Assembly: GCF_001447385.1 (NCBI RefSeq)
Contig: NZ_LLWQ01000193.1
Coordinates: 248,001 to 312,000 of the forward strand
Length of the DNA stretch: 64,000 bases
Reading direction: 5' to 3'
DNA from: Paracoccus sp. MKU1
Lineage (GTDB): Bacteria > Pseudomonadota > Alphaproteobacteria > Rhodobacterales > Rhodobacteraceae
Shown here: positions 13,054 through 26,351 of the stretch, in pieces
Layout of the letters: the number at the start of each line of letters is the position of its first letter
Numbering within the stretch: the first letter of the stretch is position 1
Notes under the pieces: generated by a model
Told to the model about the DNA's origin: nothing
Database searches by the model: none
The model's input: the letters and a program-made list of their open reading frames with translations, nothing else
Position numbers and translations under genes: made by a program

Positions 13054-13057
<4 letters not shown>
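12170..13057 (+). CDS. Cation diffusion facilitator (CDF) family transporter
   Basis: The 295-residue protein has about six membrane segments and a C-terminal cytoplasmic ferredoxin-like domain (THIHVEPE-type end, here [14 protein letters not shown]). It should export a divalent metal using the proton gradient. The fifth segment carries the conserved His-x3-Asp metal pair in [12 protein letters not shown]. The second segment reads [11 protein letters not shown]: where HxxxD or DxxxD is usual, it has Glu and Asn, which may change metal choice. ATG 12170 follows GGAAAGGA. The stop TAG overlaps the convergent ABC ATPase stop in the shared tetranucleotide CTAG. Confidence 0.85.
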
Positions 13058-14046
<989 letters not shown>

Positions 14047-14071: not shown

Positions 14072-14911
14072 TCATTTGACGGCGCCGGCGGTGATGCCGC
14101 GGATCAGCTGGCGCGAGAAGATCAGGTAAAGCACCAGCACCGGCAGGATGGCGAGGCTCAGCGCCGCCAGCACCGCGTTCCAGTTGGTGACGAACTGGCC
14201 GATGAAGACTTGGCTGCCCAGGGTCACGGTCTTGGTCGCCTCGCTCGGCGCCAGGATCAGCGGGAACCACAGGTCGTTCCAGATCGGGATCATGGTGAAG
14301 ACGGCGACGGTGGCCATGGCCGGACGCACCAGCGGCAGCACCAGCCGGAAGAAGATGGTGTATTCCGACAGCCCGTCGATGCGGCCGGCATTCTTCAGGT
14401 CGTCCGAGACGCCGCGCATGAACTCCGACAGGATGAACACCGCCAGCGGCAACCCTTGGGCGGTATAGACCAGCACCAGCGCCGTCAGCGTGTTGACCAG
14501 CCCCGAGGCCACCATCATCTGCAATATGGCGACGGTGCCCAGCCGGATCGGGATCATGATCCCCAGCGCCAGATACAGCCCCATCAGCATGTTGCCGCGA
14601 AAGCGGTATTCCGACAGGGCGAATGCCGCCATCGCGCCGAACAGCAGCACGAAGAACAGGCTGGCCACGGTCACGATCAGCGAGTTCTGGAAGTAGAGGA
14701 CGAAATCCCCCTGCGCCAGCACCGTGCGATAGCCGACCAGATCGAAGCTTTCCGGCGTCGGCACGGCCAGCGGATCGGCGAAGATCGCGCGGCGGTTCTT
14801 GAAGCTGTTGATGACCACGACGAAGACCGGGAACAGCGCGATCACCGTGTAAAGGATCAGCACGGCATGGGCGGCCAGGCTGCGGGCGGTGGAATGGCGG
14901 GCTTGGCTCAT
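14072..14911 (-). CDS. Carbohydrate ABC transporter permease (MalG type)
   Basis: The 279-residue inner-membrane permease has about six hydrophobic segments. Its cytoplasmic EAA-type loop ([22 protein letters not shown]) contacts the ATPase. The first segment ([22 protein letters not shown]) and overall length match the MalG side of family 1 sugar importers. It lies nine bases after the MalF-type permease gene in the same operon. Substrate specificity cannot be read from the permease; context points to an amino sugar. Confidence 0.92.
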
Positions 14912-14920
14912 GGTCTCCCC

Positions 14921-15838
14921 TCAGAACTGATAGCGGCGCAGCCGGCGCTGGATGGCGAACAGATAGAAGCTGACGCCCAGCAGGATGATACCGAACATGG
15001 CGGTGGCGATGGTCGCGCCCATATGCGGATCGCCGATCTGCAACTGGAAACCGAAGAAGGTGCGGTAAAGGAACGTCCCCAGGATATCGGTCGAGAAATT
15101 CGGCCCTGCTAAGGCCCCTTGCGTGACATAGATCAGGTCGAAGGCGTTGAAATTGCCGACGAAGGTCAGGATCGAGATGATGCCGATCGAGGGCAGGATC
15201 AGCGGCAGCTTGATCTTCCAGAACTGCGACCAGCCGGTGACGCCGTCCATCTCGGCCGCCTCGATCACCTCGTCGGGGATCGACAGCAGCGCGGCATAGA
15301 TCAGCATCATCGGGATGCCGACGAATTGCCAGACCGAGATCAGCGCCAGCGTGGTCAGCGCCGTGCCCTCGCGGCCCAGCCAGGGCGCGAACAGGCTTTT
15401 CAGCCCGACGGCGTCCAGCATGCCGGGCGCGATGCCCCAGATCGGCGACAGGATCAGCTTCCAGACGAAGCCGACGATGACGAAAGACAGGATGGTCGGG
15501 ATGAAGATCGCGGTGCGATAAAACGCCGCCCCCCGCAGCCGCGGCGAGCTCAGCAGCGCCGCCAGCGCCACGCCGACCGGGTTCTGCACCAGCATGTGGA
15601 CCAGGAAGAACCAGGCGTTGTTGCCAAGCGCGTTCCAGAAGCTCGCCGACCAGCGCGGATCGCCGAACAGCGTGGCGAAGTTCCGCAGACCCACAAAGAC
15701 CCGCCCGCCCTCGCCGGTATTGAACAGCGATAGGTTCAGCGTCCCGAACAGCGGAACGATCATGATGGCGGTATAGACCAGCACCGCGGGCGCAAGAAAC
15801 ACCGCGATATGCCAGCGAAACGCTTTCCGCTGCGCCAT
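14921..15838 (-). CDS. Carbohydrate ABC transporter permease (MalF type)
   Basis: The 305-residue membrane protein is the second permease subunit. It has about six hydrophobic segments and an EAA loop (AAEMDGVTGWSQFWKIKLPL) for coupling to the ATPase. It is preceded by a 122-base gap with several strong hairpins that separate it from the binding-protein gene, an arrangement that often gives more binding protein than permease. The start ATG at 15836-15838 follows AAGGAGGGC, a strong ribosome site. Confidence 0.92.
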   Translation of the reverse strand: MAQRKAFRWHIAVFLAPAVLVYTAIMIVPLFGTLNLSLFNTGEGGRVFVGLRNFATLFGDPRWSASFWNALGNNAWFFLVHMLVQNPVGVALAALLSSPRLRGAAFYRTAIFIPTILSFVIVGFVWKLILSPIWGIAPGMLDAVGLKSLFAPWLGREGTALTTLALISVWQFVGIPMMLIYAALLSIPDEVIEAAEMDGVTGWSQFWKIKLPLILPSIGIISILTFVGNFNAFDLIYVTQGALAGPNFSTDILGTFLYRTFFGFQLQIGDPHMGATIATAMFGIILLGVSFYLFAIQRRLRRYQF

Positions 15839-15960: not shown

Positions 15961-17220
15961 TCACTGTTGCTGCGGCGCGTACCACGAGGCCAGACCCTGT
16001 TGCAGCCGCTCGGCCGCGGCCTCGGGCGTCTCGGCGCCGGTGATGACATTGGCCGAGGCGGTCCAGGTCTCGTTCTCCAGGTTCGGCGTGCCGCGCGACA
16101 GGATCTGGTAGGTCGAGCGGATGGTGGGCTCACAGGTCTCGCGCCAGCCGACGAATTCCTTGGCCAGCGGGTCCTCCATCTCGACCGGGGCCGAGTTCAG
16201 CGAGAAGAAGCCGGGCAGCGCATTCGCATAAAGCGAGGCGAATTCCGACGAGCCGACCCATTCCAGGAATTTCCGCGCCTCTTCCGGGTGCTTGGTCGCG
16301 GCGTTCATGCCCAGGGCGATGTCGGTATGGTCGCTGATATAGCAGGTGTCGCCCTCGGCCGGGACCGGGGGCGGGAAGGCGCCCATCTCGAAGGCGCCGC
16401 CGATCTGCGGGCCGAAGACGCCGATCTCCCAGGACCCGGCCGGATAGATCGCGGCGCGGCCCAGCGTGAACAGGTTCTGGCTGTCGGGATAGGTCTGCGC
16501 CTCGAAGCCGTCGCCCAGATAGTCCTTCCACTTCGCCAGCTGGCGGAAGGGCGCGACCCAAGGCTCATCCGTCAGCTTCTGCGTGCCCTCGATCAGCGCC
16601 TTGCGGCCCTCCTCGCCTTTCCAGTAGGTCGGGCCGATGTTCTGGTAGCCCATGGTCGCCGCTTCCCACTGGTCGGCCGTGCCCATGGCCATCGGGATAT
16701 AGGTGCCGTCTTCCTTGATCTTGTCGAGCAGCGCGAAGAACTCCGCCTCGGTCTTGGGCGGGGTCAGGCCCAGTTCCTCGAAGGCGGTCTTGTTGTAGAT
16801 GAAGCCGTGGATGACCGAGGCCATCGGCACGCAGAAGGTCTGGGTGCCGTCATCGGTCTGCCAGGCCGATTTCGCCACGTCCGAGAAATTCGCCATCGCC
16901 GCCAGGTCGCTCAGATCGGCCAGCTTGCCCTTCTTGAACAGCTCCAGCGAGGCGTCGAAGGGCCGGCAGGTAATCAGGTCGCCGGCCGAGCCCGCATCGA
17001 GCTTGGAATTCAGCACCGCGTTGTATTCCGGCGGCGCCGAGGGCGCGAAATTGATCTTGATGCCGGGATTGGCCGCCTCGAAGGCCGGGATGATCTTTTC
17101 CTGCCAGATGGCGAGGTCGTCGTTGCGCCAGCTCTCGATGGTCAGCGTGACGTCCTGGGCCCAGGCGGCGCTGCCCAGCAGGGTGCTGGCCAGCAGCGCC
17201 AGGCGGATGGTCTTGGTCAT
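15961..17220 (-). CDS. Extracellular sugar-binding protein of the ABC transporter
   Basis: The 419-residue periplasmic protein starts with a signal peptide (MTKTIRLALLASTLLGSAAWAQ, cleavage after AWA). The mature protein (VTLTIESWRNDDLAIWQEKI) belongs to family 1 solute-binding proteins, which capture oligosaccharides or sugars. Conserved patterns include PGIKINF and AAIYPAGSWE. It sits 48 bases downstream of the murQ-like gene and upstream of the permeases. Its companions (etherase, kinase, deacetylase, deaminase) suggest the ligand is N-acetylmuramic acid, N-acetylglucosamine or a disaccharide of these; this is inference. ATG 17220 follows GGGAGAAG. Confidence 0.92.
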   Translation of the reverse strand: MTKTIRLALLASTLLGSAAWAQDVTLTIESWRNDDLAIWQEKIIPAFEAANPGIKINFAPSAPPEYNAVLNSKLDAGSAGDLITCRPFDASLELFKKGKLADLSDLAAMANFSDVAKSAWQTDDGTQTFCVPMASVIHGFIYNKTAFEELGLTPPKTEAEFFALLDKIKEDGTYIPMAMGTADQWEAATMGYQNIGPTYWKGEEGRKALIEGTQKLTDEPWVAPFRQLAKWKDYLGDGFEAQTYPDSQNLFTLGRAAIYPAGSWEIGVFGPQIGGAFEMGAFPPPVPAEGDTCYISDHTDIALGMNAATKHPEEARKFLEWVGSSEFASLYANALPGFFSLNSAPVEMEDPLAKEFVGWRETCEPTIRSTYQILSRGTPNLENETWTASANVITGAETPEAAAERLQQGLASWYAPQQQ

Positions 17221-17268: not shown

Positions 17269-18147
17269 TCAGATCAGCGGGGCCAGCAGGCCCCCGGTTT
17301 CGGCCAGCCGCGCCCCGGCCGCGTCGGGCGCCATGCCGCGCGCGACCAGGATGGCGGGCTTGACCGCGCCGCCGCTGCGCGACAGCGCCGCCTCGGCCTC
17401 GTCGCGGGTCACGCCCGCCACGGCGGCCACGATGCGGGCGGCGCGGTCCACCAGCTTGATGTTGTCGGCCACCAGGTTGACCATGTAGCCGTCATGGACA
17501 TGGCCCAGCCGGATCGCGACCAGCACCGAAAGCATGTTCAGCGCCACCTTCTGCGCCGTGGCCGCCCCCATGCGGGTCGATCCCGAGACGACCTCGGCCC
17601 CGGTCTCGATCAGCACCGGGATGTCGGCGCGTTCCAGCAGGGCCGAGCCCGCCACATTGGCGAGGCCGGCCACGGTCACGCCCCGCTCCTGCGCCGCCGC
17701 GCAGATCGCCAGCGCATAGGGCGTCCGCCCCGAGGCCGAGAGGCACAGGAGCACATCCCCCGCCCCAAGCCCGGCGCGGTCCAGATCGGCCAGGGCCAGC
17801 GCCGGATCGTCCTCGACGCTGCCCTTCAGATGCAAAAGCGCCTCTGCCCCGCCGGCGAACATCATCGGCGTGCGTTCGGGCGCGATACCGAAGGTGCCGG
17901 CGAGCTCCAGGCAATCCGCCAGCGCCATCAGCCCCGAGGAACCGGCGCCGGCATAGCCGAGCTTGCCGCCGGAGCGCAGCGCGGCGCTGGCAGCCTCGGC
18001 CGCGCGCTCCAGGGCCGGCAGAGCGGGCTCCAACGCCCCAAGCGCCACCATTTGCGCCTCAAGCAGGATGCGCAGGACGTCGCCGCCGGAACGCGCGTGA
18101 AGTCCTGCGGATGCCGGATGCCTTGCCTCGGTGCCGGATGCGGTCAT
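17269..18147 (-). CDS. murQ: N-acetylmuramic acid 6-phosphate etherase-like SIS protein
   Basis: The 292-residue protein has a sugar-isomerase (SIS) fold. It matches MurQ in several blocks: YAGAGSSGLMALADCLE, the phosphosugar loop LSASGRTPYALAICAAA, and GAEVVSGSTRMGAATAQK with KVALNMLS, the MurQ signature. Glutamates corresponding to the catalytic pair appear in ADCLE and GSVEDD. MurQ removes the D-lactyl ether from MurNAc-6-phosphate to give GlcNAc-6-phosphate. The N-terminus is divergent from enterobacterial MurQ. It is first in the operon with the ABC transporter, divergent from the sugar kinase, and carries an operator copy just upstream. ATG 18147 follows GGGGGAA. Confidence 0.83.
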   Translation of the reverse strand: MTASGTEARHPASAGLHARSGGDVLRILLEAQMVALGALEPALPALERAAEAASAALRSGGKLGYAGAGSSGLMALADCLELAGTFGIAPERTPMMFAGGAEALLHLKGSVEDDPALALADLDRAGLGAGDVLLCLSASGRTPYALAICAAAQERGVTVAGLANVAGSALLERADIPVLIETGAEVVSGSTRMGAATAQKVALNMLSVLVAIRLGHVHDGYMVNLVADNIKLVDRAARIVAAVAGVTRDEAEAALSRSGGAVKPAILVARGMAPDAAGARLAETGGLLAPLI

Positions 18148-18171
18148 GTGATTCCCCCTGTTCCGCAGATA

Positions 18172-18188
18172 ATGCCAAAACAATACCA
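18172..18188 (-). promoter_or_regulatory. Putative GntR (NagQ-like) operator before the murQ/ABC operon
   Basis: On the minus strand the site reads TGGTATTGTTTTGGCAT, a near-direct repeat of TGGTAT/TGGCAT. It matches the site at 18262-18278 in 16 of 17 positions and lies 25 bases before the murQ start. The GntR regulator encoded at 19133 is the likely ligand-responsive repressor. Confidence 0.72.
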
Positions 18189-18261
18189 CTTGTAAAGGCC
18201 CTTCTTGAAAATCCGCACAAAACGGCCTTTTATCGGGATTATTAAAATACCCCTTTCCTTT

Positions 18262-18278
18262 TGGTATTGTTTTGGTAT
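18262..18278 (+). promoter_or_regulatory. Putative GntR (NagQ-like) operator before the kinase/nagA operon
   Basis: TGGTATTGTTTTGGTAT, two TGGTAT units, lies 22 bases before the kinase start. It mirrors the copy on the opposite strand at 18172-18188, so both divergent arms appear to be under one regulator. A separate dyad, AAAGGCC (18194-18200) and GGCCTTT (18224-18230), lies between the two operators. Confidence 0.72.
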
Positions 18279-18299
18279 CGTCACCTCAAAGGAGTCGCC

Positions 18300-19133
18300 A
18301 TGTCATATTTCCTGGGCATAGACGGAGGGGGGACCGGCTGCCGCGCGGCCATCGCGGACGGCTCGGGCCGGATCATCGGCCAGGGCGCGGCCGGGCCGGC
18401 CAATATCTCGGTCGAGACCGAGGGGGCCTGCGCCAATATCCTCGCCGCCGCCCGTGCCGCGCTTCAGGACGCCGGACAGGGCCATCTGGACGAGCTGACC
18501 GCGGTGCTGGGCCTGGCCGGGGCCAATGTCACCGCCGCCGCCCGCAGCCTGCGGGCCATGCTGCCCTTTCGCCGCACCCGCATCGTCACCGACGCGGTGA
18601 CCGCCGCCACCGGCGCGCTGGGGGGCGGGGACGGCATCGTCGCCGCCATGGGCACCGGCTCGGTCTTCGCGGTCCAGATCGGCGGCGAGATGCGGCAATA
18701 TGGCGGGCGCGGCTTCGTCCTGGGCGACGAGGGCAGCGGCGCGGTTCTGGGCCGGGCGCTCTTGTCCGAGGCCCTGCGCGCCGAGGACGGCTTCGCGCCG
18801 ATGACCCCGCTGCTCCAGGCGGTGCTGGACGAGCTGGGCGGGATCGAGGGGGTGATCTCCTTCGGCTTCCGCGCCCGGCCGGCCGAATTCGCGCAATTCG
18901 CGCCGCGCATCGTCGCCGGCACCGACCCGGTGGGCGAGCGCATCTTTGCCGCCGCCGTGGCCGAGATCCGCGCCATGATCGACAGGCTGCAAGCCGAGCG
19001 CGACCTGCCGGTGGTGTTCCTGGGCGGGCTCGGCACGCATTACGCCGCCCGCTTGCAGGGGCTGTGGCGCATCGAGGCGCCCAAGGGCTCGGGCCTCGAC
19101 GGGGCGCTGCATCTGGCCCGGCAGGAGGCGTGA
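18300..19133 (+). CDS. BadF/BadG/BcrA/BcrD-type amino-sugar kinase
   Basis: The 277-residue ATPase has the sugar-kinase actin-like fold: phosphate-1 motif FLGIDGGGTGCRA at the N-terminus, the second phosphate loop AAMGTGSVFAVQ, and GGRGFVLGDEGSGA, typical of N-acetylglucosamine and MurNAc kinases (MurK/NagK-like). It probably phosphorylates the imported amino sugar with ATP, since no PTS gene is present. ATG 18300 follows AAGGAG. The stop overlaps the GntR start by one base. It heads the right arm of the amino-sugar locus, downstream of an operator. Whether MurNAc, GlcNAc or both are substrates cannot be told. Confidence 0.85.
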   Translation: MSYFLGIDGGGTGCRAAIADGSGRIIGQGAAGPANISVETEGACANILAAARAALQDAGQGHLDELTAVLGLAGANVTAAARSLRAMLPFRRTRIVTDAVTAATGALGGGDGIVAAMGTGSVFAVQIGGEMRQYGGRGFVLGDEGSGAVLGRALLSEALRAEDGFAPMTPLLQAVLDELGGIEGVISFGFRARPAEFAQFAPRIVAGTDPVGERIFAAAVAEIRAMIDRLQAERDLPVVFLGGLGTHYAARLQGLWRIEAPKGSGLDGALHLARQEA

Positions 19134-19900
19134 TGGGCGAGTTGTTCACCCCCGAAGCGTTTGAGGAAACCGGCGGCGGGCCGCTTTACCTGCAACTGCA
19201 CCGGCTGATCGCCGAGGCCATCGCCTCGGGGCGGCTGCAACCGGGCGACAGCCTGCCATCGGAACGCGAGCTGGCGGCGATGACTGGCCTGTCGCGCGTC
19301 ACCGTACGCAAGGGGGTGGCGGAGCTGGTCGGCTCGGGGCAGCTGGTGCAAAGGCGCGGCTCGGGCACCTTCGTCGCGCCCAAGGTCGAAAAGCTGGAAC
19401 AGGCGCTGTCGCTGCTGACCTCGTTCACCGAGGACATGGCCCGGCGCGGCCGCAGCGTCGAAAGCCGCTGGATCGCCCGCGGCCTGCACGCCCCGGCGCC
19501 CGAGGAGGTGATGGCGCTCGGGCTGGGCGTCGGCGAGAAGGTGGCGCGGCTGGAACGGGTGCGCAGCTCGGACGGGGTGCCGCTGGCCATCGAGCGCGCC
19601 TCGCTGTCGCAGGCGATCCTGCCCGATCCCGAAGGCGTCGATGCCTCGCTTTACGCGGTGCTGGAAGCGCGCGGCATGCGGCCGGTGCGGGCGGTGCAGC
19701 GCATCTCTGCCGCGAACCTGAACGCCAAGGACGCGGAATTGCTGGGCGTCAGCCCCGGCGTGGCCGGGCTGCGCATCGAACGCATCTCCTACCTGCCCTC
19801 GGGCAAGGTGGTCGAGTTCACCCGCTCGCTCTATCGCGGCGATGCCTATGACTTCGCCGTGGAACTGAAACTTGCCCCGGAAGGCGAAAGGAACCCCTGA
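19133..19900 (+). CDS. GntR-family regulator with UTRA effector domain (HutC subfamily)
   Basis: The 255-residue protein has an N-terminal winged helix-turn-helix (residues about 17-85; PLYLQLHRLIAEAI, SLPSERELAAMTGLSRVTVRK) and a C-terminal UTRA domain that binds small sugar-phosphate ligands (LERVRSSDGVPLAIERASLS, VVEFTRSLYRGDAYDF). This is the NagR/NagQ architecture; GlcN-6-P or GlcNAc-6-P would be the expected inducer. It sits in the operon it probably controls, with 1-base overlaps to the kinase and to the SIS deaminase. Two mirrored TGGTAT-type operators lie in the divergent region upstream. Confidence 0.9.
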   Translation: MGELFTPEAFEETGGGPLYLQLHRLIAEAIASGRLQPGDSLPSERELAAMTGLSRVTVRKGVAELVGSGQLVQRRGSGTFVAPKVEKLEQALSLLTSFTEDMARRGRSVESRWIARGLHAPAPEEVMALGLGVGEKVARLERVRSSDGVPLAIERASLSQAILPDPEGVDASLYAVLEARGMRPVRAVQRISAANLNAKDAELLGVSPGVAGLRIERISYLPSGKVVEFTRSLYRGDAYDFAVELKLAPEGERNP

Positions 19901-20925
19901 TGAGCCAGACGCATATGGCGCGCGAAGTGGCCGAGATCCCCGAAGCCGCGGCCCGTTTCCTGGAACGCTCGCGCGATGCGGTCGCGGATGCCGCCGCAGC
20001 TCTGCGCCGCAAGGACCCCGATCTGGTGGTCACCGTGGCGCGCGGGTCGTCGGACCATGCCGCGACCTATCTGAAATACGCCATCGAGCTGGAGGCCGGG
20101 GTGCCGGTCGCTTCGGTCGGGCCGTCCATCGCCTCGATCTATCGCCGGCCCTTGCGGCTGGGCAAGGCGGCCTGCATCGGCATCTCGCAATCCGGCCGCA
20201 GCCCGGACGGGGTCGAGATGATGCGCGCCTCGGGTCAGGGCGGCGCGCTGTCGATCGCCATCACCAATGTCGAGGACAGCCCGATGGCGCAGGTCTCGGC
20301 CCATTGCCTGCCCTTGCAGGCGGGCGAGGAGAAAAGCGTCGCCGCCACCAAGACCTTCGTCTGCTCGGTGCTGGCCGGCCTGTCGCTCTTGGCGGAATGG
20401 CGCGAGGATCACGCCCTGCAGGATGCCGTCGCCGCCCTGCCCGAGGCGTTCGGGCAGGCCGTGGGGCTGGACTGGTCGCCGCTGTCGGCGCGGCTGGCGC
20501 GGGCCAGCTCGGCCTTCGTGCTTGGCCGCGGCCCCAGCTTCGCCATCGCCTGCGAATCGGCGCTGAAGTTCAAGGAAACCTCGGGCATCCATGCCGAGGC
20601 CTATTCGGCTGCCGAGGTGCTGCACGGCCCCGCCGCCATCGTGCAGGCCGGCTTCCCGGTGCTGGCGCTGGGGATCGAGGATGCCGCCCTGCCCCAGCTC
20701 AAGGCCACGGCCGAGCGGCTGGCGGCCCAGGGCGCGGATGTGTTCGTGACCGGCACCGAGGTCGGCGGCGCCGTCACCCTGCCCTCGGTCCCCGGCCTGC
20801 ATCCGCTGGTGGCGCCACTGGTGACCATCGCCGGCTTCTACGCCTTCATCGAGGGGCTGGCGCGGCGGCGCGGCTTCGACCCCGACACGCCGCCGCATCT
20901 GCGCAAGGTGACGGAGACGGTGTGA
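19900..20925 (+). CDS. SIS-domain glucosamine-6-phosphate deaminase (NagB-II / AgaS type)
   Basis: The 341-residue protein has two SIS domains, like the isomerase half of GlmS but lacking the N-terminal glutamine amidotransferase domain. Diagnostic segments are VTVARGSSDHAATYLKYA, ISQSGRSPDGVEMM, EKSVAATKTFV and a C-terminal LRKVTETV, equivalent to the GlmS isomerase tail. Such stand-alone enzymes (NagB-II) convert glucosamine-6-phosphate to fructose-6-phosphate and ammonia. No classical NagB is in the window, so this probably completes the pathway after NagA. Start and stop codons overlap those of its neighbours. Confidence 0.88.
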   Translation: MSQTHMAREVAEIPEAAARFLERSRDAVADAAAALRRKDPDLVVTVARGSSDHAATYLKYAIELEAGVPVASVGPSIASIYRRPLRLGKAACIGISQSGRSPDGVEMMRASGQGGALSIAITNVEDSPMAQVSAHCLPLQAGEEKSVAATKTFVCSVLAGLSLLAEWREDHALQDAVAALPEAFGQAVGLDWSPLSARLARASSAFVLGRGPSFAIACESALKFKETSGIHAEAYSAAEVLHGPAAIVQAGFPVLALGIEDAALPQLKATAERLAAQGADVFVTGTEVGGAVTLPSVPGLHPLVAPLVTIAGFYAFIEGLARRRGFDPDTPPHLRKVTETV

Positions 20926-22049
20926 TGGCGCGCGAGGTCCTGACCGGCGCGCGGATCTTCGACGGCGCGCGTTTCCTCGACGGCCATGCGCTGGTGATCG
21001 AGGCGGGCGAGATCGCCGCCATCCTGCCCGAGGCCGAGGCGCCGGCCGAGGGGCGGCGGGCGGTGTCGGGCATCCTCGCCCCGGCTTTCCTGGATTTGCA
21101 GGTGAACGGCGGCGGGGGGCTGATGCTGGACGGCACGACCGATCTGGGGGGGCTGCACCGCATCTGCGCCGCGCATCGGGCGCTTGGCACCGCCGGGGTG
21201 CTGCCGACGCTGATCACCGACACGCCCGAGGCCACCGCCCATGTCATCGCGCTGGGGATCGCCGCGGCCGAGGCAGGGGTGCCGGGCTTCCTGGGCCTGC
21301 ATCTGGAGGGGCCGCATCTCGACCCGCGCCGCAAGGGCGCCCATGATCCGGCGCTGATCCGGCCGATGGGCGACGAGGATCTGGCCCGGCTTTGCGACGC
21401 CGCGCGCCGGCTGCCGGCGCTGATGGTGACGCTGGCGCCCGAGGCGGCAAGCCCGCAGCAGATCGCGGCGCTGGCCGGGGCCGGGGCGGTGGTCAGCCTG
21501 GGCCATAGCGATTGCAGCCATGACGAGGCGCAGGCCGCCTTTGCCGCCGGTGCCCGCTGCGCGACGCATCTGTTCAACGCCATGAGCCAGATCGGCAACC
21601 GCGCGCCGGGGCTGGCGGGCGCGGTGCTGGCCGGCGAGGCCGGGGCCGGGCTGATCGCCGACGGCATCCACGTGCATCCGGCGGTGATGCGGCTGGCGCT
21701 GGGGGCGCGGCCCGAGGGCATCTTCCTGGTCAGCGACTGCATGGCCTTCGCCGGCACCGACCGGACCGAGATGGAGCTGGGCGGCCGCAAGGTGCTGCGC
21801 CGCGACGGGCGGCTGACCCTGGCCGACGGCACGCTGGCCGGGGCCGACCTGACGCTGCCGCAGGCCATCGCCGTGCTGGTCCATCAGGTCGGCATCGCGC
21901 CCGAACGCGCGCTGCGCATGGCCTCGGCCATCCCGGCGGCGCTGCTGGGCTTGCAGGACCGATATGGCGCGCTGGCCCCCGGCCGTCCGGCCGATCTGGT
22001 GCTGCTGGCCGAGGATTTCAGCCTGCGCGAACACTGGCTGTCGCCCTGA
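20925..22049 (+). CDS. nagA: N-acetylglucosamine-6-phosphate deacetylase
   Basis: The 374-residue amidohydrolase removes acetate from GlcNAc-6-phosphate. The metal-binding glutamate lies in LHLEGPHLDPRRKGAH, and the histidines in SLGHSDC and ATHLFNAMSQ. The catalytic Asp is in FLVSDCMAFAGT and the C-terminal barrel closes with LGLQDRYGALAPGRPADLVLL. Length is close to E. coli NagA. The start overlaps the deaminase stop by one base. It is the last gene of the right arm; 93 bases separate it from nnr, which belongs to a different system. Confidence 0.95.
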   Translation: MAREVLTGARIFDGARFLDGHALVIEAGEIAAILPEAEAPAEGRRAVSGILAPAFLDLQVNGGGGLMLDGTTDLGGLHRICAAHRALGTAGVLPTLITDTPEATAHVIALGIAAAEAGVPGFLGLHLEGPHLDPRRKGAHDPALIRPMGDEDLARLCDAARRLPALMVTLAPEAASPQQIAALAGAGAVVSLGHSDCSHDEAQAAFAAGARCATHLFNAMSQIGNRAPGLAGAVLAGEAGAGLIADGIHVHPAVMRLALGARPEGIFLVSDCMAFAGTDRTEMELGGRKVLRRDGRLTLADGTLAGADLTLPQAIAVLVHQVGIAPERALRMASAIPAALLGLQDRYGALAPGRPADLVLLAEDFSLREHWLSP

Positions 22050-22142
22050 ACGCCGGGAAATGCCGAGTGGAATGCGCGGTCTTTCCCTCGCCGGCCGGGC
22101 GTGCAAAACTCGGACCGGCGCGAAACCATGGACGAGGCTCCG

Positions 22143-22817
22143 ATGAATGCCCCCCTGCCCGAGGCAGTGAAGAAATCCGTTCTGCTGAACGGGCTGACTC
22201 CCGAGATGCGCGACAAGCTGCTGAAGGACGCCCAGCGGCGCAGCTATCGCGAGGGCGAGACCATCTTCCTGCAAGGCGATCCGGCGCGGGCGGTGTTCAT
22301 CGTGCTGAACGGCTTCATCAAGCTGTCGCGACTGACGCCGAACGGGACCGAGGCGGTGGTGGCGATCCTGGGCCGCAACCGCAGCTTTGCCGAGGCGATG
22401 GCGCTGCGCGGCACGCCCTATCCGGTCTCGGCCGAGGCGATCTCGGATTGCACGCTGTTGCAGATCGACGGCGCGCGGCTGCGGCAATTCCTGCTGGAGA
22501 ACCAGGAATTCGCCATCGGTCTGCTGGCCTCGACCTTCGTGCATTTGCAAGGGCTGGTGGACCAGATCGAAAGGCTCAAGGCCCATACCGGGGTGCAGCG
22601 CGTGGCGCAGTTCCTGGCCGACCTTTCCGATGCCGAGGCCGGCCCGACCGAGGTGCGGCTGCCCTATAACAAGCGGCTGATCGCCGGCCATCTGGGCATG
22701 CAGCCGGAAAGCCTGTCGCGCGCCTTCGCCCGGCTGCGCCAGCACGGGGTCGAGATCGAGGCCGACAAGGCCATCATCGCCGACATTGCCGAATTGCGCA
22801 TGATGGCCATGGATTGA
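22143..22817 (+). CDS. nnr: Crp/Fnr-family nitric-oxide-responsive regulator
   Basis: The 224-residue protein has a cyclic-nucleotide-like beta-roll (about residues 15-125), a dimerisation helix and a C-terminal helix-turn-helix, LIAGHLGMQPESLSRAFARL. The recognition helix carries the Glu-x-x-Ser-Arg pattern of FNR, which reads TTGAT half-sites. The cysteine cluster that holds the FNR iron-sulphur centre is absent, as in the Nnr/DNR branch, whose members sense NO, probably via heme. It lies convergent to norF at the end of the nor operon; matching boxes precede norC and nirS. ATG 22143 follows GAGG; ATG 22128 and GTG 22101 are in-frame alternatives. Confidence 0.88.
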   Translation: MNAPLPEAVKKSVLLNGLTPEMRDKLLKDAQRRSYREGETIFLQGDPARAVFIVLNGFIKLSRLTPNGTEAVVAILGRNRSFAEAMALRGTPYPVSAEAISDCTLLQIDGARLRQFLLENQEFAIGLLASTFVHLQGLVDQIERLKAHTGVQRVAQFLADLSDAEAGPTEVRLPYNKRLIAGHLGMQPESLSRAFARLRQHGVEIEADKAIIADIAELRMMAMD

Positions 22818-22835
22818 CGGTCCGGGCCCCGCGCC

Positions 22836-23069
22836 TCAGACGAGATGCAGCCCCCAGATCAGCGCCAGCCAGATCGCCAGCGGCACGGTGAAGGCGGCGC
22901 GCCAACCCGCGGCCCGGTCGAGATGCAGAAAGCCGGCCAGGATGGCGCGGGCCTTCAGCAGCGCCAGCCCCAGCAGCGCCGCCGCCGCGACCGGCCCCGA
23001 GGCAAAGGCCAGCGCCGTGGTGGCGGCGGTCAGGGCCAACAGGATCAGCCAGATGCGTGTCAGTTCCAT
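22836..23069 (-). CDS. norF: Nitric oxide reductase accessory protein NorF
   Basis: The 77-residue membrane protein has two or three hydrophobic segments (LILLALTAATTALAFA, AALLGLALLKARAIL, LAIWLALIWGLHLV). It resembles the small cytochrome-oxidase-subunit-IV-like NorF. NorF and NorE are needed for full NO reductase activity or stability in Paracoccus but are not catalytic. It is last in norCBQDEF, three bases after norE. Its stop is 18 bases from the stop of convergent nnr, with no clear terminator between them. Confidence 0.86.
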   Translation of the reverse strand: MELTRIWLILLALTAATTALAFASGPVAAAALLGLALLKARAILAGFLHLDRAAGWRAAFTVPLAIWLALIWGLHLV

Positions 23070-23072
23070 CCC

Positions 23073-23609
23073 CTACCCCAGCAGATAGACCGGCGGCAGG
23101 ATCAGCACCCAGACCAGATCGACCATGTGCCAGAAGGCGGCGCCGGCCTGCACCTCCTCGGCGCGCAGCCGGATCGCCACCAGCGCCAGCACGCCGATGC
23201 CGAACAGCACATGCGCGGCGTGAAAGCCGGTCAGCAGGTAGTAGAAGGTGAAGAACGGGTGGCTCTCCATGCCCAGGCCCGCGCGCAGGTCGCCGGCATA
23301 TTCCACCACCTTCACCGCCAGGAAGGCCGCACCCCCCAGCGCCGCCAGCGCCAGCCCGAGGCGTGCCCGGCGCCGGTCGCCGCGATGGCAGGCACGCTCG
23401 GCCAGGGCGGCGAAAAGGCCCGAGGTGACCAGGATCGCGGTGTTCAGCGCCGCCATCCAGCCATGCAGCTGCGCCTGCGCCGCGGCAAATCCCGCCGGGT
23501 CGGTCAGCCGCACCCCGGCCATGGCGGTGATGCCGGCGGCAAAGACCAGCAGTTCGGAGGCGATGAGCACCCACATGATCGGCTCGCCCGGCAGATCCTG
23601 GACCCGCAT
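23073..23609 (-). CDS. norE: Nitric oxide reductase accessory protein NorE (cytochrome oxidase subunit III family)
   Basis: The 178-residue protein has about five membrane segments and the layout of cytochrome c oxidase subunit III: WVLIASELLVFAAGI near the N-terminus, FYYLLTGFHAAHVLFGI, and FWHMVDLVWVLILPPVYLL at the end. Family members assist NorCB but carry no redox centre. The ATG at 23607-23609 overlaps the norD stop (TGATG); a GTG one codon earlier is possible. It sits between norD and norF. Confidence 0.9.
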   Translation of the reverse strand: MRVQDLPGEPIMWVLIASELLVFAAGITAMAGVRLTDPAGFAAAQAQLHGWMAALNTAILVTSGLFAALAERACHRGDRRRARLGLALAALGGAAFLAVKVVEYAGDLRAGLGMESHPFFTFYYLLTGFHAAHVLFGIGVLALVAIRLRAEEVQAGAAFWHMVDLVWVLILPPVYLLG

Positions 23610-25525
23610 CACGCCACCAGTTGCCGATAGATCACCGGCAGCGCCGCCAGCAGCCGGTCGGGATGCGGGATCAGCGAAAAGCCGCCCTGGCCGAAGATGC
23701 GGGGAAACCAGCTTTTCGCATCGCGGTCCACGGTGATGCCATGCACGGCATGGCCGGCACGCCGCGCCTCGCGCACTGCCATGGCGCTGTCCTCGATGCC
23801 GTGGCGGCCCTCGTAATGGTCGAGATCGTTGGGCTTGCCGTCGGTGATGACCAGCAAAAGCCGCCGGCTGCTGGCCTGCTGCGCCAGCCCGGCCGAGGCA
23901 TGGCGGATGCCGGCGCCCAGCCGTGTATAGAAACGCGGCCGCAGCCCGGCGATGCGCCGCTCGACCGCCGCGCCCATCGGTTCGTCGAAATCCTTGCAGG
24001 CGCTCAGGAACACCCGGTCGCGCTTGAGCGAGGAAAAGGCATTGATCGCGAAACGGTCGCCGCAGGCATCCAGCCCCCAGGCCAGCGCCGCCAGCGCCTC
24101 GCGCTCGATCTCGATCACCGCCCGCCCCGTCACCGCGCTTTCGGTCGAGCGCGACACGTCGAGCAGGATCGACACCGCAAGGTTGCGCGCCAAGGGCCGG
24201 GACTGGCGCCAGATGCGGTCGCTGCCCTGGCCGGTGGCGCGCAGGTCGGCGGCGGCGCGGACGGTCAGCTCGGCATCCAGCTCATCCCCGTCGCGGTGGC
24301 CGGTGGTGGTAACGCGCCCGGGCCGCAGCGCCTCGAACTGGCGGCGCACGGCGCGGATGCGGGCTTGCGCGCGGGGGTCCGGGGTCAGCGCCTCGTCATG
24401 CTCGGGCGCGCGGTTTTCCAGCACGCGCACATGGCCGGCAAGGTAGCGGCCGCGCCGCGCGTCCCATTCGGGATAGGTGCGGATGCCGGCGACAGCCTCA
24501 AGATCCGCGTCCTCGGGCGCAAGATCGAGATGCAGCCGCAGGCGGGTCGCCGGTGCCTTCGACACCTGGCCAAGGCCCAGTTCTTCCTGGTCCTCGGCCG
24601 CCTTCTTCGCGTCGTCCTGATCGTCATCATCGACATGCCGGTTGAGATTCATCAGATCGGCCCAGCTCAGCAGAGCCTCGAACTTGTGCAGGATCAGGCT
24701 GTCGCGGCGCTGCGGCTGGTCGCTCTGCCGGCGGCGGGCACGGAACATGCGCGCGCTGGCCGGATCGGCGGCGATGCCGTCGGGTGCGTCGCCCGGGGCG
24801 GCGGCCAGCGTCGTGCCGGGCGCGGCCAGATCGGGCCAGAGCGGCACCGGCCGCATCGGGCGATAGCCGCGCGGCGCCTGCGCCTGCGGATCGTCCAGCA
24901 CCGCCAGCCAGTCGCGAGCCAGCGGCGGCAAGGGCGCCGGATCGCCAAGAAAATGGCAGACCAGCGCCTCGACCGCCGCCTCGGCCGGCGGCAGCGCGGC
25001 CGTGGGGCGCAGCGACAACACCAGTTCGGCAAGGTCGTCGTAAAGCCCGGTCAGGCCCGGCGCATCCTGCAACGTGGCCTCGACGGCCCGCTGCGCCGCA
25101 CCTAGCCTTGCCAGGTCGCGGCGCAGCGGGTCGTCCTGCGCGGGCGCCATACTGCCATGCGCCGCACAAGCCGCGAGCCACAGGAAAAGCGCGCCGTTCG
25201 CCTGGCGCGAGGGCAGCACCGACAGCCGCTCCGGCAGGCGCAGGATCTCGCCATCGAAACTGGCATGCGGCACCGTCTCGGCCACCGTGCCCAGCCGGCG
25301 CAGCCAGCCGATGCGATGCTGCGACGCCTGGACGGCGGCGGGCCGGATCTCGACCGCCGCGCCGCCGCCCAGTCCCCGGAACAGCACCGCGAGCCGCCCC
25401 GAGACTTCGGAAAGCGCCACCGCCTGATCCTCGAACTCCTGCGGTGCGCCGAAGCCGCTGGCCCAGACGTGCCAGAGCTTGCCGACGGTTTCCTCGGGTT
25501 CCCAGGGTTCCAGGTCCAGACCCAT
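23609..25525 (-). CDS. norD: Nitric oxide reductase activation protein NorD
   Basis: The 638-residue cytoplasmic protein ends in a von Willebrand factor A domain (about residues 440-630) with the metal-site motif LLDVSRSTES, a DxSxS-type MIDAS. The N-terminal 400 residues are variable with an acidic stretch (DDDDQDDAKKAAEDQEELG). NorD works with the AAA+ ATPase NorQ, probably as a MoxR/vWA pair that helps insert the non-heme iron of NorB. It follows norQ by 13 bases and its stop overlaps the norE start. ATG 25525 gives the family's usual length. Confidence 0.94.
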   Translation of the reverse strand: MGLDLEPWEPEETVGKLWHVWASGFGAPQEFEDQAVALSEVSGRLAVLFRGLGGGAAVEIRPAAVQASQHRIGWLRRLGTVAETVPHASFDGEILRLPERLSVLPSRQANGALFLWLAACAAHGSMAPAQDDPLRRDLARLGAAQRAVEATLQDAPGLTGLYDDLAELVLSLRPTAALPPAEAAVEALVCHFLGDPAPLPPLARDWLAVLDDPQAQAPRGYRPMRPVPLWPDLAAPGTTLAAAPGDAPDGIAADPASARMFRARRRQSDQPQRRDSLILHKFEALLSWADLMNLNRHVDDDDQDDAKKAAEDQEELGLGQVSKAPATRLRLHLDLAPEDADLEAVAGIRTYPEWDARRGRYLAGHVRVLENRAPEHDEALTPDPRAQARIRAVRRQFEALRPGRVTTTGHRDGDELDAELTVRAAADLRATGQGSDRIWRQSRPLARNLAVSILLDVSRSTESAVTGRAVIEIEREALAALAWGLDACGDRFAINAFSSLKRDRVFLSACKDFDEPMGAAVERRIAGLRPRFYTRLGAGIRHASAGLAQQASSRRLLLVITDGKPNDLDHYEGRHGIEDSAMAVREARRAGHAVHGITVDRDAKSWFPRIFGQGGFSLIPHPDRLLAALPVIYRQLVA

Positions 25526-25538
25526 GCCGCGCCCCCTT

Positions 25539-26351
25539 TCAGCCGAAGATCGCCGCGACCAGGTCGCGCAGCCCACGCTTGACCTCGGCATCGTCGGTCA
25601 GGGGCTCGATCATCGCCGCCTCGACGGCGCGGTCCAGGCTCATGCCGCGCGCGACCAGGCTGGCGGCATAGACCACCAGCCGGGTCGAGACGCCCTCCTC
25701 CAGATCCTGGCCCTTGAGGCCGCGGATCTTGCCCGCCAACCGCACCAGCCCCAGGGTCCGATCGTGGTCGAGGCCGCTTTCGCGGGCCACGATCTCGGCC
25801 TCGCGCCTGGGTTCGGGAAAGTCGAACTCCATGGCCACGAAACGCTGCCGCGTCGAAGGCTTCAGCGTCTTGAGGATGTTTTGGTAGCCGGGGTTGTAGG
25901 AGGCCACCAGCATGAAGCCCGGCGCCGCCTCGATCTCCTCGCCGGTGCGGTCGATGGGCAGGATGCGGCGGTCGTCGGTCAGCGGGTGCAGCACCACGGT
26001 CACGTCCTTGCGCGCCTCGACCACCTCGTCGAGATAGCAGATCGCGCCCTCGCGCACGGCGCGGGTCAGCGGACCGTCGGTCCAGACCGTCTCGCCGCCC
26101 TTGAGCAGGTAGCGCCCGATCAGGTCGGCGGCCGACAGGTCGTCATGGCAGGCCACGGTATAAAGCGGCCGGCCCAGCCGCGCCGCCATATGGGCGACGA
26201 AGCGGGTCTTGCCGCAGCCGGTCGGGCCTTTCAGCAGCACCGGCAGGTCGTTCGCAGCGGCGGCCTCGAAGACCGCGACCTCGTCGCCCTGCGGCAGATA
26301 GAAGGGGGCGTCGGCCGCCCCGTTCCGTTCGGTTTTCACATGCGCGTTCAT
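25539..26351 (-). CDS. norQ: AAA+ ATPase NorQ (MoxR family)
   Basis: The 270-residue protein has Walker A GPTGCGKTRF at about residues 42-51, Walker B AICYLDEVVEA, and sensor-type residues in MLVASYNPGYQ, all typical of CbbQ/NirQ/NorQ ATPases. These act with a von Willebrand factor A partner (NorD here) as chaperones that activate the metalloenzyme, in this case NorCB. It follows norB by three bases. No truncation or missing motif is seen. Confidence 0.95.
   Translation of the reverse strand: MNAHVKTERNGAADAPFYLPQGDEVAVFEAAAANDLPVLLKGPTGCGKTRFVAHMAARLGRPLYTVACHDDLSAADLIGRYLLKGGETVWTDGPLTRAVREGAICYLDEVVEARKDVTVVLHPLTDDRRILPIDRTGEEIEAAPGFMLVASYNPGYQNILKTLKPSTRQRFVAMEFDFPEPRREAEIVARESGLDHDRTLGLVRLAGKIRGLKGQDLEEGVSTRLVVYAASLVARGMSLDRAVEAAMIEPLTDDAEVKRGLRDLVAAIFG

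Follow-up and report, generated by a model that had tools for sequence, protein, structure and literature searches.

The 64,000-nucleotide stretch of Paracoccus sp. MKU1 DNA analysed here (the window) carries a murQ/ABC operon on the minus strand, back to back with a nagK-gntR-nagB-nagA operon on the plus strand, and a 17-bp site lies in mirrored orientation just ahead of the first gene of each arm. An earlier note on this DNA, made from the sequence alone, had read the two sites as operators flanking the divergent promoters and predicted that the locally encoded GntR protein represses both arms together, possibly by looping. The question that the locus raises is whether the two sites work as a pair and, if so, what sets the distance between them.

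The divergon and its two sites

The minus-strand arm begins with a murQ-like N-acetylmuramic acid 6-phosphate etherase (17269–18147; NCBIfam NF003915, 291.5 bits, cut-off 168). Downstream of it lie a sugar ABC substrate-binding protein (15961–17220; weak TIGR03850 and NgcE matches, both below cut-off), two sugar ABC permeases (14921–15838 and 14072–14911; matches under curated cut-offs) and a UgpC/MalK-type ABC ATPase (13054–14046; NF008653, 445.1 bits, cut-off 432), all on the minus strand. The plus-strand arm comprises a BadF/BadG-type, NagK-like amino-sugar kinase (18300–19133; PF01869, with NF046058 at 151.5 bits), a NagQ-like GntR/HutC regulator that overlaps the nagK stop codon (19133–19900), a NagB-II-type glucosamine-6-phosphate deaminase of the SIS type (19900–20925; PF01380, with NF046059 at 301.9 bits) and nagA, for N-acetylglucosamine-6-phosphate deacetylase (20922–22049; TIGR00221, 249.3 bits, cut-off 225.65). 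These are the gene neighbours expected of NagQ, with the kinase and the deaminase below their equivalog cut-offs (370 and 430, respectively), and the same gene order is found in many of the at least 80 pattern-found loci described below, as far as their stretches extend. Further downstream (22101–26351), a Crp/Fnr-type regulator, a COX3-like protein and, by eye only, NorQ/NorD-like genes are found, which places the amino-sugar cluster next to genes of respiration.

The regulator has the domain composition of NagQ, with PF00392 at 58.7 bits and the UTRA domain PF07702 at 128.4 bits, both over cut-off; a NagQ model is absent from the 25 of 26 NCBIfam matches listed for the window proteins. Its nearest PDB chains by sequence are NagR (YvoA) and DasR. 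The available part of the NagR study gives Arg38, Arg48 and Gly69 as the operator-guanine and wing contacts, and Thr90, Arg133, Arg135, Ser165 and Tyr167 as contacts to the sugar phosphate (PMC4333415). In our alignment, counted by hand, the former correspond to R45, R55 and G76 and the latter to T99, R142, R144, S172 and Y174, with Ile166 replaced by L173. We infer that the regulator probably binds the 17-mers and would be released by an amino-sugar phosphate.

The sites themselves are where the earlier note had put them: TGGTATTGTTTTGGCAT at 18172–18188 on the minus strand, 25 bases from the murQ ATG at 18147, and TGGTATTGTTTTGGTAT at 18262–18278 on the plus strand, 22 bases from the nagK ATG at 18300, with 90 bp between the site centres. 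The putative NagQ-type operators are direct repeats, TGGTAT-N5-TGGCAT in the murQ arm and TGGTAT-N5-TGGTAT in the nagK arm, giving the general form TGGTAT-N5-TGGYAT with an 11-bp period; in the nagK arm 18259–18269 and 18270–18280 form an 11-bp tandem repeat. A palindromic (dre-site) reading was rejected, each site being a direct repeat rather than the inverted-repeat operator of DasR and NagR, and a TGGTATT direct repeat upstream of nag genes is what is expected of a NagQ operator. The 73 bp between the sites (18189–18261) are the putative loop DNA, the length of which is conserved in whole helical turns, with a central part that shows little conservation.

At up to three mismatches the two 17-mers are the sole matches in the whole window, and 100 shuffles of the window gave a mean of 0.01 matches and no shuffle with two; the pair is not a chance occurrence. 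No other exact match to either was found in the draft genome of 5.39 Mb, which consists of 242 contigs. In the genome search for other regulon members that the note proposed, three mismatches added four matches against four for the reversed-pattern control; the loosened pattern TGGTATTNNNNTGGNAT with two mismatches gave 74 matches against 37 for its control, and additional weak regulon sites may exist in the genome.

Co-occurrence of the pair with the regulator

Within a sample of 101 genomes of the genus, the GntR protein (E ≤ 1e-40) is present in 33. The strict pair occurs in 26 of these 33 and in none of the 68 GntR-negative genomes, and the reversed pattern occurs in 0 of 101. Seven of the GntR-positive genomes lack the strict pair. 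Two genomes (G077, G085) have the pair at 111 bp, beyond the gap allowed; one (G072) has a half-site with an altered first base; one (G100) has one weaker site at 89 bp and another (G024) two weaker sites at 90 bp. The sixth (G063, locus L165) carries two intact sites 954 bp apart, in the murQ and nagK arms, apparently through an insertion between the operators. The last (G023, loci L167 and L023) has nagK and the GntR gene, but its stretches, as far as read, contain neither murQ nor the operators, which suggests a local loss.

Across 395 genomes of the family the strict pair at 75–105 bp was found in 13 (control 0), all of which fall within the 135 genomes having the GntR protein at E ≤ 1e-50. 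At a spacing of 106–136 bp the strict TGG pattern, which cannot match the AGG half-sites of a distant clade, was found in 0 of 395. When the genome_contigs collection (84,980 species) was scanned with the strict-pair pattern at 75–105 bp, at least 80 stretches came back, and among those listed 78 lie beside nag-type genes. As a pattern-found set is biased by its search pattern, our main counts come from a protein-based census, built from 140 regulator places (E ≤ 1e-50) in the 395 family genomes together with the genus loci. Here, a pair was accepted if its half-sites were TGGTAT or AGGTAT, if neither site had more than a single mismatch, and if the spacing was 40 to 250 bp.

The census gave 171 readable GntR loci, with a divergent murQ detected in 117. 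A mirrored pair is present in 111 of the 117 murQ loci (103 with at most one mismatch overall and 81 with none, the clean pairs) and in six no pair was found; the reversed-order control was found in 0 of 171 loci. Three census loci without a pair have a cut contig (L013), lack the sites (L023), or have the second site beyond the stretch (L027). The other 54 loci have no detected murQ, some owing to a short stretch, and seven of them have pairs (L079 at 110, L180 at 86, L217 at 89, L234 at 90, L243 at 100, L253 at 102 and L255 at 100 bp), which were excluded from the main counts.

Several variants of the arrangement were seen among the census loci. Twenty-two loci without murQ (L075 and others in L205–L267) have one TGGTATTATTTTGGTAG-like minus-strand site 142–170 bp upstream of the regulator start, with weak mirrored partners visible in some of them. 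In L220 the regulator is, by eye, divergent from two sugar-permease-like genes. Six genus loci (L028–L030, L033, L034 and L036) have no nagK beside the regulator, yet a pair at 89–91 bp, and the first half-site of their regulator arm is TGGCAT.

That the GntR protein governs the two arms jointly, as the earlier note predicted, is supported by the co-occurrence of pair and regulator and by the agreement of the direct repeat with the published NagQ motif.

The sites within their putative promoters

Although the earlier note placed the operators on the flanks of the promoters, each instead fills the spacer of a conserved −35/−10 pair. In the murQ arm, the promoter scan gave a −35-like TTTACA (18191–18196, minus strand) and a −10-like CATTAT preceded by TG, as in an extended −10 (18169–18174, minus strand), which overlaps the second half-site of the operator. 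This TTTACA-16-CATTAT promoter, reading into murQ across the operator, was the only one that the consensus scan found (shuffles mean 0.2); for the nagK arm the same scan found none. The nagK-arm elements it misses are a −35-like TTTCCT preceded by C (18254–18259, plus strand), evident from the logo, and a −10-like TATCGT preceded by TG (18276–18281, plus strand), again overlapping the second half-site.

Conservation was assessed in 72 pattern-found loci, in which the pattern-fixed positions are 100% by construction, and in clean census loci of a close clade (35 loci) and of the distant clade (38 loci, from L067–L081 and L168–L277). In the 72 loci, a gap of two bases separates the −35-like element from the operator in each arm. 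Beyond the operator, T at +19 completes a TATnnT-like −10 that starts within the second half-site, in 95% of murQ arms and in 100% (72/72) of nagK arms. The +19 T of the murQ arm is present in 35/35 close and 31/38 distant loci and that of the nagK arm in 34/35 close loci, while TnnACA stands at the murQ-arm −35 place in 33/35 close and 33/38 distant arms. The second half-site, TGG-YAT, thus probably also serves as an extended −10 element. Position 15 is specific to the arm, with C in the murQ arm and T in the nagK arm in 35/35 clean close-clade loci each.

The murQ arm of some loci (L168, L169, L174, L182, L194 and others) has three half-sites with an 11-bp period, TGGTAG-ACAAA-TGGTAT-CTAAA-AGGTAT, of which the first overlaps the −35-like element; the arrangement resembles the triple repeat of NanR.

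The two clades differ in the register of the nagK promoter. In the close clade a −35-like CTT[TCG] lies at −9 in 33/35 loci, with a second at −16 in 8/35, whereas in the distant clade it lies at −16 in 29/38, at −12 in six and at −9 in none. A TATA-like −10 at +6 to +9 is present in 29/38 distant loci vs 0/35 close ones, and overall the nagK promoter elements are shifted by 7–8 bp relative to the operator. In 37 of the 38 distant loci an ATG in the nagK arm begins 17–25 bases after the first base of the operator (5/35 in the close clade). Since this ATG comes just after the TATA-like −10, the nagK message of the distant clade may be nearly leaderless.

Spacing in whole helical turns

The 90-bp spacing of a single locus predicts nothing about looping, and this part of the earlier note's guess gains nothing from the window alone. 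What bears on it is the spacing across relatives. Among the at least 113 main-clade rows listed (scan and protein-found), the spacings fall into four classes, 79–80 (9 rows), 88–91 (95), 99–100 (7) and 111 bp (2), with none in between; the set holds at least 93 non-redundant rows, and the tree needs nine class changes. The census extends the series, with groups at 79–81, 88–91, 99–102, 109–112 and 120–122 bp, single pairs at 131 and 143 bp, and seven other spacings (59, 68, 95, 128, 138, 164 and 187 bp).

These spacings form a comb with a helical period. Measured against 89.6 + k × 10.45, 107 of the 111 pairs (80 of the 81 clean pairs) deviate by no more than 2 bp, and 102 (78 of 81) by no more than 1.5 bp. 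For the clean non-modal pairs (outside 86–93 bp), 40 of 42 lie within 1.5 bp, where about 29% (3/10.45) would be expected without a phase. The best period is 10.4 bp, with R = 0.91 for the 68 pairs that have standard site-to-start distances; R is 0.89 in 33 distant pairs and 0.83 for all 118 pairs at 10.5 bp. When each spacing was jittered by up to 5 bp, 0 of 5000 sets reached the observed R, although the rows are related, so that Rayleigh p-values are not probabilities and both bootstrap and jitter treat the rows as independent. Parsimony places 20 class changes on the tree when the 82 clean rows are used and 34 when all 104 are, with 39 of 101 tree branches weakly resolved, so the number of independent changes is approximate. 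Two operators at a helix-phased spacing, a feature of DNA-looping repressor systems of the NagC, Lac, Gal and AraR type, are thus present in the main clade, by evolutionary phasing.

One pair was scored per locus, that with the fewest mismatches and then the shortest spacing. In L213 this chose 89 bp where 120 bp was equally good and the sister row has 120 bp, and because weaker rows can be mis-scored in this way the clean rows are reported separately. Three loci were dropped: L103 and L113, which have no nag genes nearby and were taken as chance (by our own estimate about one chance match is expected), and L250, which has no GntR match within its stretch.

We considered whether the 11-bp repeat of the half-sites, through a slip of register, could imitate 11-bp steps, and rejected this on three grounds: R is 0.915 at 10.4 bp vs 0.829 at 11.0 bp (n = 73), both gene starts are at standard distances in 68 of the 82 clean pairs at any spacing, and the −10 and −35 elements fix the operator register in the close clade.

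The exceptions within the clade that lie more than 2 bp off the comb are L239 (128 bp, clean) and three loci with weaker sites, L201 (95 bp), L276 (138 bp) and L173 (187 bp). Outside the main clade six loci have a pair and were treated separately (Devosia 92, 101 and 104 bp; Lysobacter 93; Rudaea 101; Pseudomonas 83). The phase is not seen in this set: by our own arithmetic on the residuals, two of the six deviate from the comb by no more than 2 bp and four by more.

The strongest alternative is that the two are independent NagQ operators that make no contact, with a spacing that is inherited or set by the space the divergent promoters need. Each operator does cover its own promoter-like elements, an arrangement that would suffice for repression by a steric block, and a nearly constant site-to-start distance with a variable spacing is the separate-control pattern described in the accessible portion of PMC4494728. 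As operator-to-start distances hardly vary with class in most loci, it is the spacer that changes; in 14 of the 82 clean pairs the gene starts are not both at standard offsets. In six loci nagK starts 45–51 bp after the site, and in L175 and L192 the murQ starts are 82–94 bp off. An inherited spacing, however, would not jump by about +10, +21, +31 and −10 bp while skipping the intermediates. The close fit of the clean non-modal pairs to the comb over some 20 parsimony changes, with a divergent spacer, makes independent operators unlikely.

A phase between the promoters or their polymerases, through shared upstream contacts or supercoil coupling, with the operators merely following, would be in keeping with the fixed register of the close-clade operators with their −35 and −10 elements. 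The distant clade separates the two, as its nagK elements have moved while the phase of its operator comb has not: the difference between clades is −0.03 bp at T = 10.45 (95% bootstrap −0.35 to +0.31, with rows taken as independent) and runs from +0.50 to −0.34 bp over T = 10.2 to 10.6. Because the phase is equal where the nagK promoter register differs, the likeliest reading is that it belongs to the two operators, in other words to the repressors bound there, and not to the pair of promoters; we regard a promoter-based phase as very improbable.

We give just as little credence to a third protein (CRP-like, IHF or HU) that binds mid-spacer, has to keep phase with the two operators, and acts as a bridge or bender of the DNA. 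GalR-type loops use HU, and isolated mid-spacer columns reach 1 bit. Helical phasing is also required between SiaR and CRP of Haemophilus, according to the part of that study available (PMC2946308). Against this, the 89-bp and 90-bp classes have no continuous conserved mid-spacer motif, with a median pairwise identity in the pattern-found set of 0.34 and 0.33, and a mean of 0.25 and 0.33 bit per column, respectively; a sequence-independent bender would be compatible with looping. Finally, there is next to no chance that the 17-mers are elements for an alternative sigma factor such as sigma-54 (GG-N10-GC), since, although the TGG...GC spacing fits the murQ-arm site on inspection, the nagK-arm site has T for C in 35/35 clean close loci, sigma-70-type elements surround both sites, and the strict pair is found in 0 of the 68 genus genomes lacking the GntR gene.

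We return to looping between the two operators as the best explanation, on the strength of the helical period of the comb and of a phase that does not follow the nagK promoter elements when they shift. Quite probably, the 17-mers are operators of a NagQ-like repressor lying inside the two promoters, with the bound repressors touching across a short loop of constrained phase. The sites, their conservation in the family, their overlap with promoter-like elements and the comb are observed, while NagQ binding, repressor–repressor contact, looping and the identity of the effector are what we infer. A repressor on each operator would cover the promoter spacer and the extended −10, and so block RNA polymerase directly. 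Repressors on both operators would also contact each other, and the 62–126 bp of DNA separating the operators, 73 bp in this locus, would be bent into a short loop. Repression would be stronger for it, and murQ-ABC and nagK-gntR-nagB-nagA would switch together. DNA of 79–143 bp is shorter than the persistence length, and a wrong phase costs twist energy; as short DNA resists twist, evolution would alter the distance almost only by whole helical turns. An amino-sugar phosphate from the pathway would release the complex, likely GlcNAc-6-P or GlcN-6-P and possibly MurNAc-6-P.

The two operators and known looping systems

The regulator and its motif are already known; what appears new is that a mirrored pair of operators embedded in promoters keeps its helical phase across a whole family. 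Among the titles and abstract openings listed by the literature searches, largely those of open-access papers, no report of phased NagQ operators was found. The 82 clean operator pairs form a natural series in which the phase comb is directly visible, and the series offers a purely comparative route to detecting repression loops and estimating the selected helical repeat (10.4–10.5 bp). Helical phasing is often used to confirm looping, on built constructs and with a sensitivity below about 500 bp, as stated in the accessible portion of PMC8053113. The phasing also makes looping by a HutC-type repressor directly testable. If our reading is true, a single switch would join salvage of MurNAc (murQ), sugar uptake and GlcNAc catabolism in Paracoccus and related bacteria.

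The closest known regulons are those of NagQ. Most HutC-subfamily motifs are palindromic, NagQ being an exception with its TGGTATT direct repeats (PMC4494728, available part), and the NagQ motif is described as a tandem repeat, with NagQ in alpha-, beta- and some gammaproteobacteria (PMC5343134, available part). The NagQ regulons share with our locus the regulator subfamily, the nagA/nagB/nagK content and the TGGTATT direct repeat; as far as these sources extend, they are silent on helical phasing of operator pairs, on half-sites embedded in promoters, on murQ and on the AGGTAT form seen in the distant clade (PMC4494728, PMC5343134). Suvorova and co-workers divided double-site HutC divergons into a group with constant distance, presumably cooperative, and a separate group (PMC4494728, in part); the main text of that article does not use 'period', 'phase' or 'helix turn', and has 'helical' and 'looping' in other contexts only.

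Among regulators of known structure, B. subtilis NagR and Streptomyces DasR (GntR/HutC) are the closest PDB chains, with their DNA- and phosphate-contact residues conserved here. NagR recognises imperfect palindromic dre sites, unlike the direct-repeat operator of our locus, and the available part of its study mentions adjacent DNA fragments being bridged (PMC4333415). On our reading, a HutC-type regulator bound to direct repeats should be able to link two sites, a step further than the NagR dimer on its palindrome. NanR belongs to a different subfamily, FadR, and AraR of B. subtilis, a GntR-type regulator said in work by Mota in 2001 to act by looping, differs from our regulator in effector domain and operators. 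Dimers of E. coli NanR, of the GntR family, bind a (GGTATA)3 operator cooperatively, according to the accessible part of PMC8012715; those repeats are within one operator, whereas here two mirrored operators stand mostly 79–143 bp apart.

The nearest architectural counterpart is NagC of E. coli, for which the available part of PMC5401889 reports that two sites and DNA looping are required at the divergent nagE-nagB. Like the system proposed here, NagC is an amino-sugar repressor with two sites at divergent nag promoters (PMC5401889, in part), but it is a ROK protein and ours a GntR protein, so a shared architecture would be convergent. Direct-repeat binding is atypical for HutC dimers and counts against our reading. 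With a shade less confidence than we place in the phased contact itself, we still think it likely that a HutC-type repressor reading direct repeats forms an obligatory, very short loop across divergent promoters; one family would then have run the helical-phasing experiment about 20 times, with the loop sequence and the register of one promoter left free, and arrived at a convergent counterpart of NagC with an unrelated fold.
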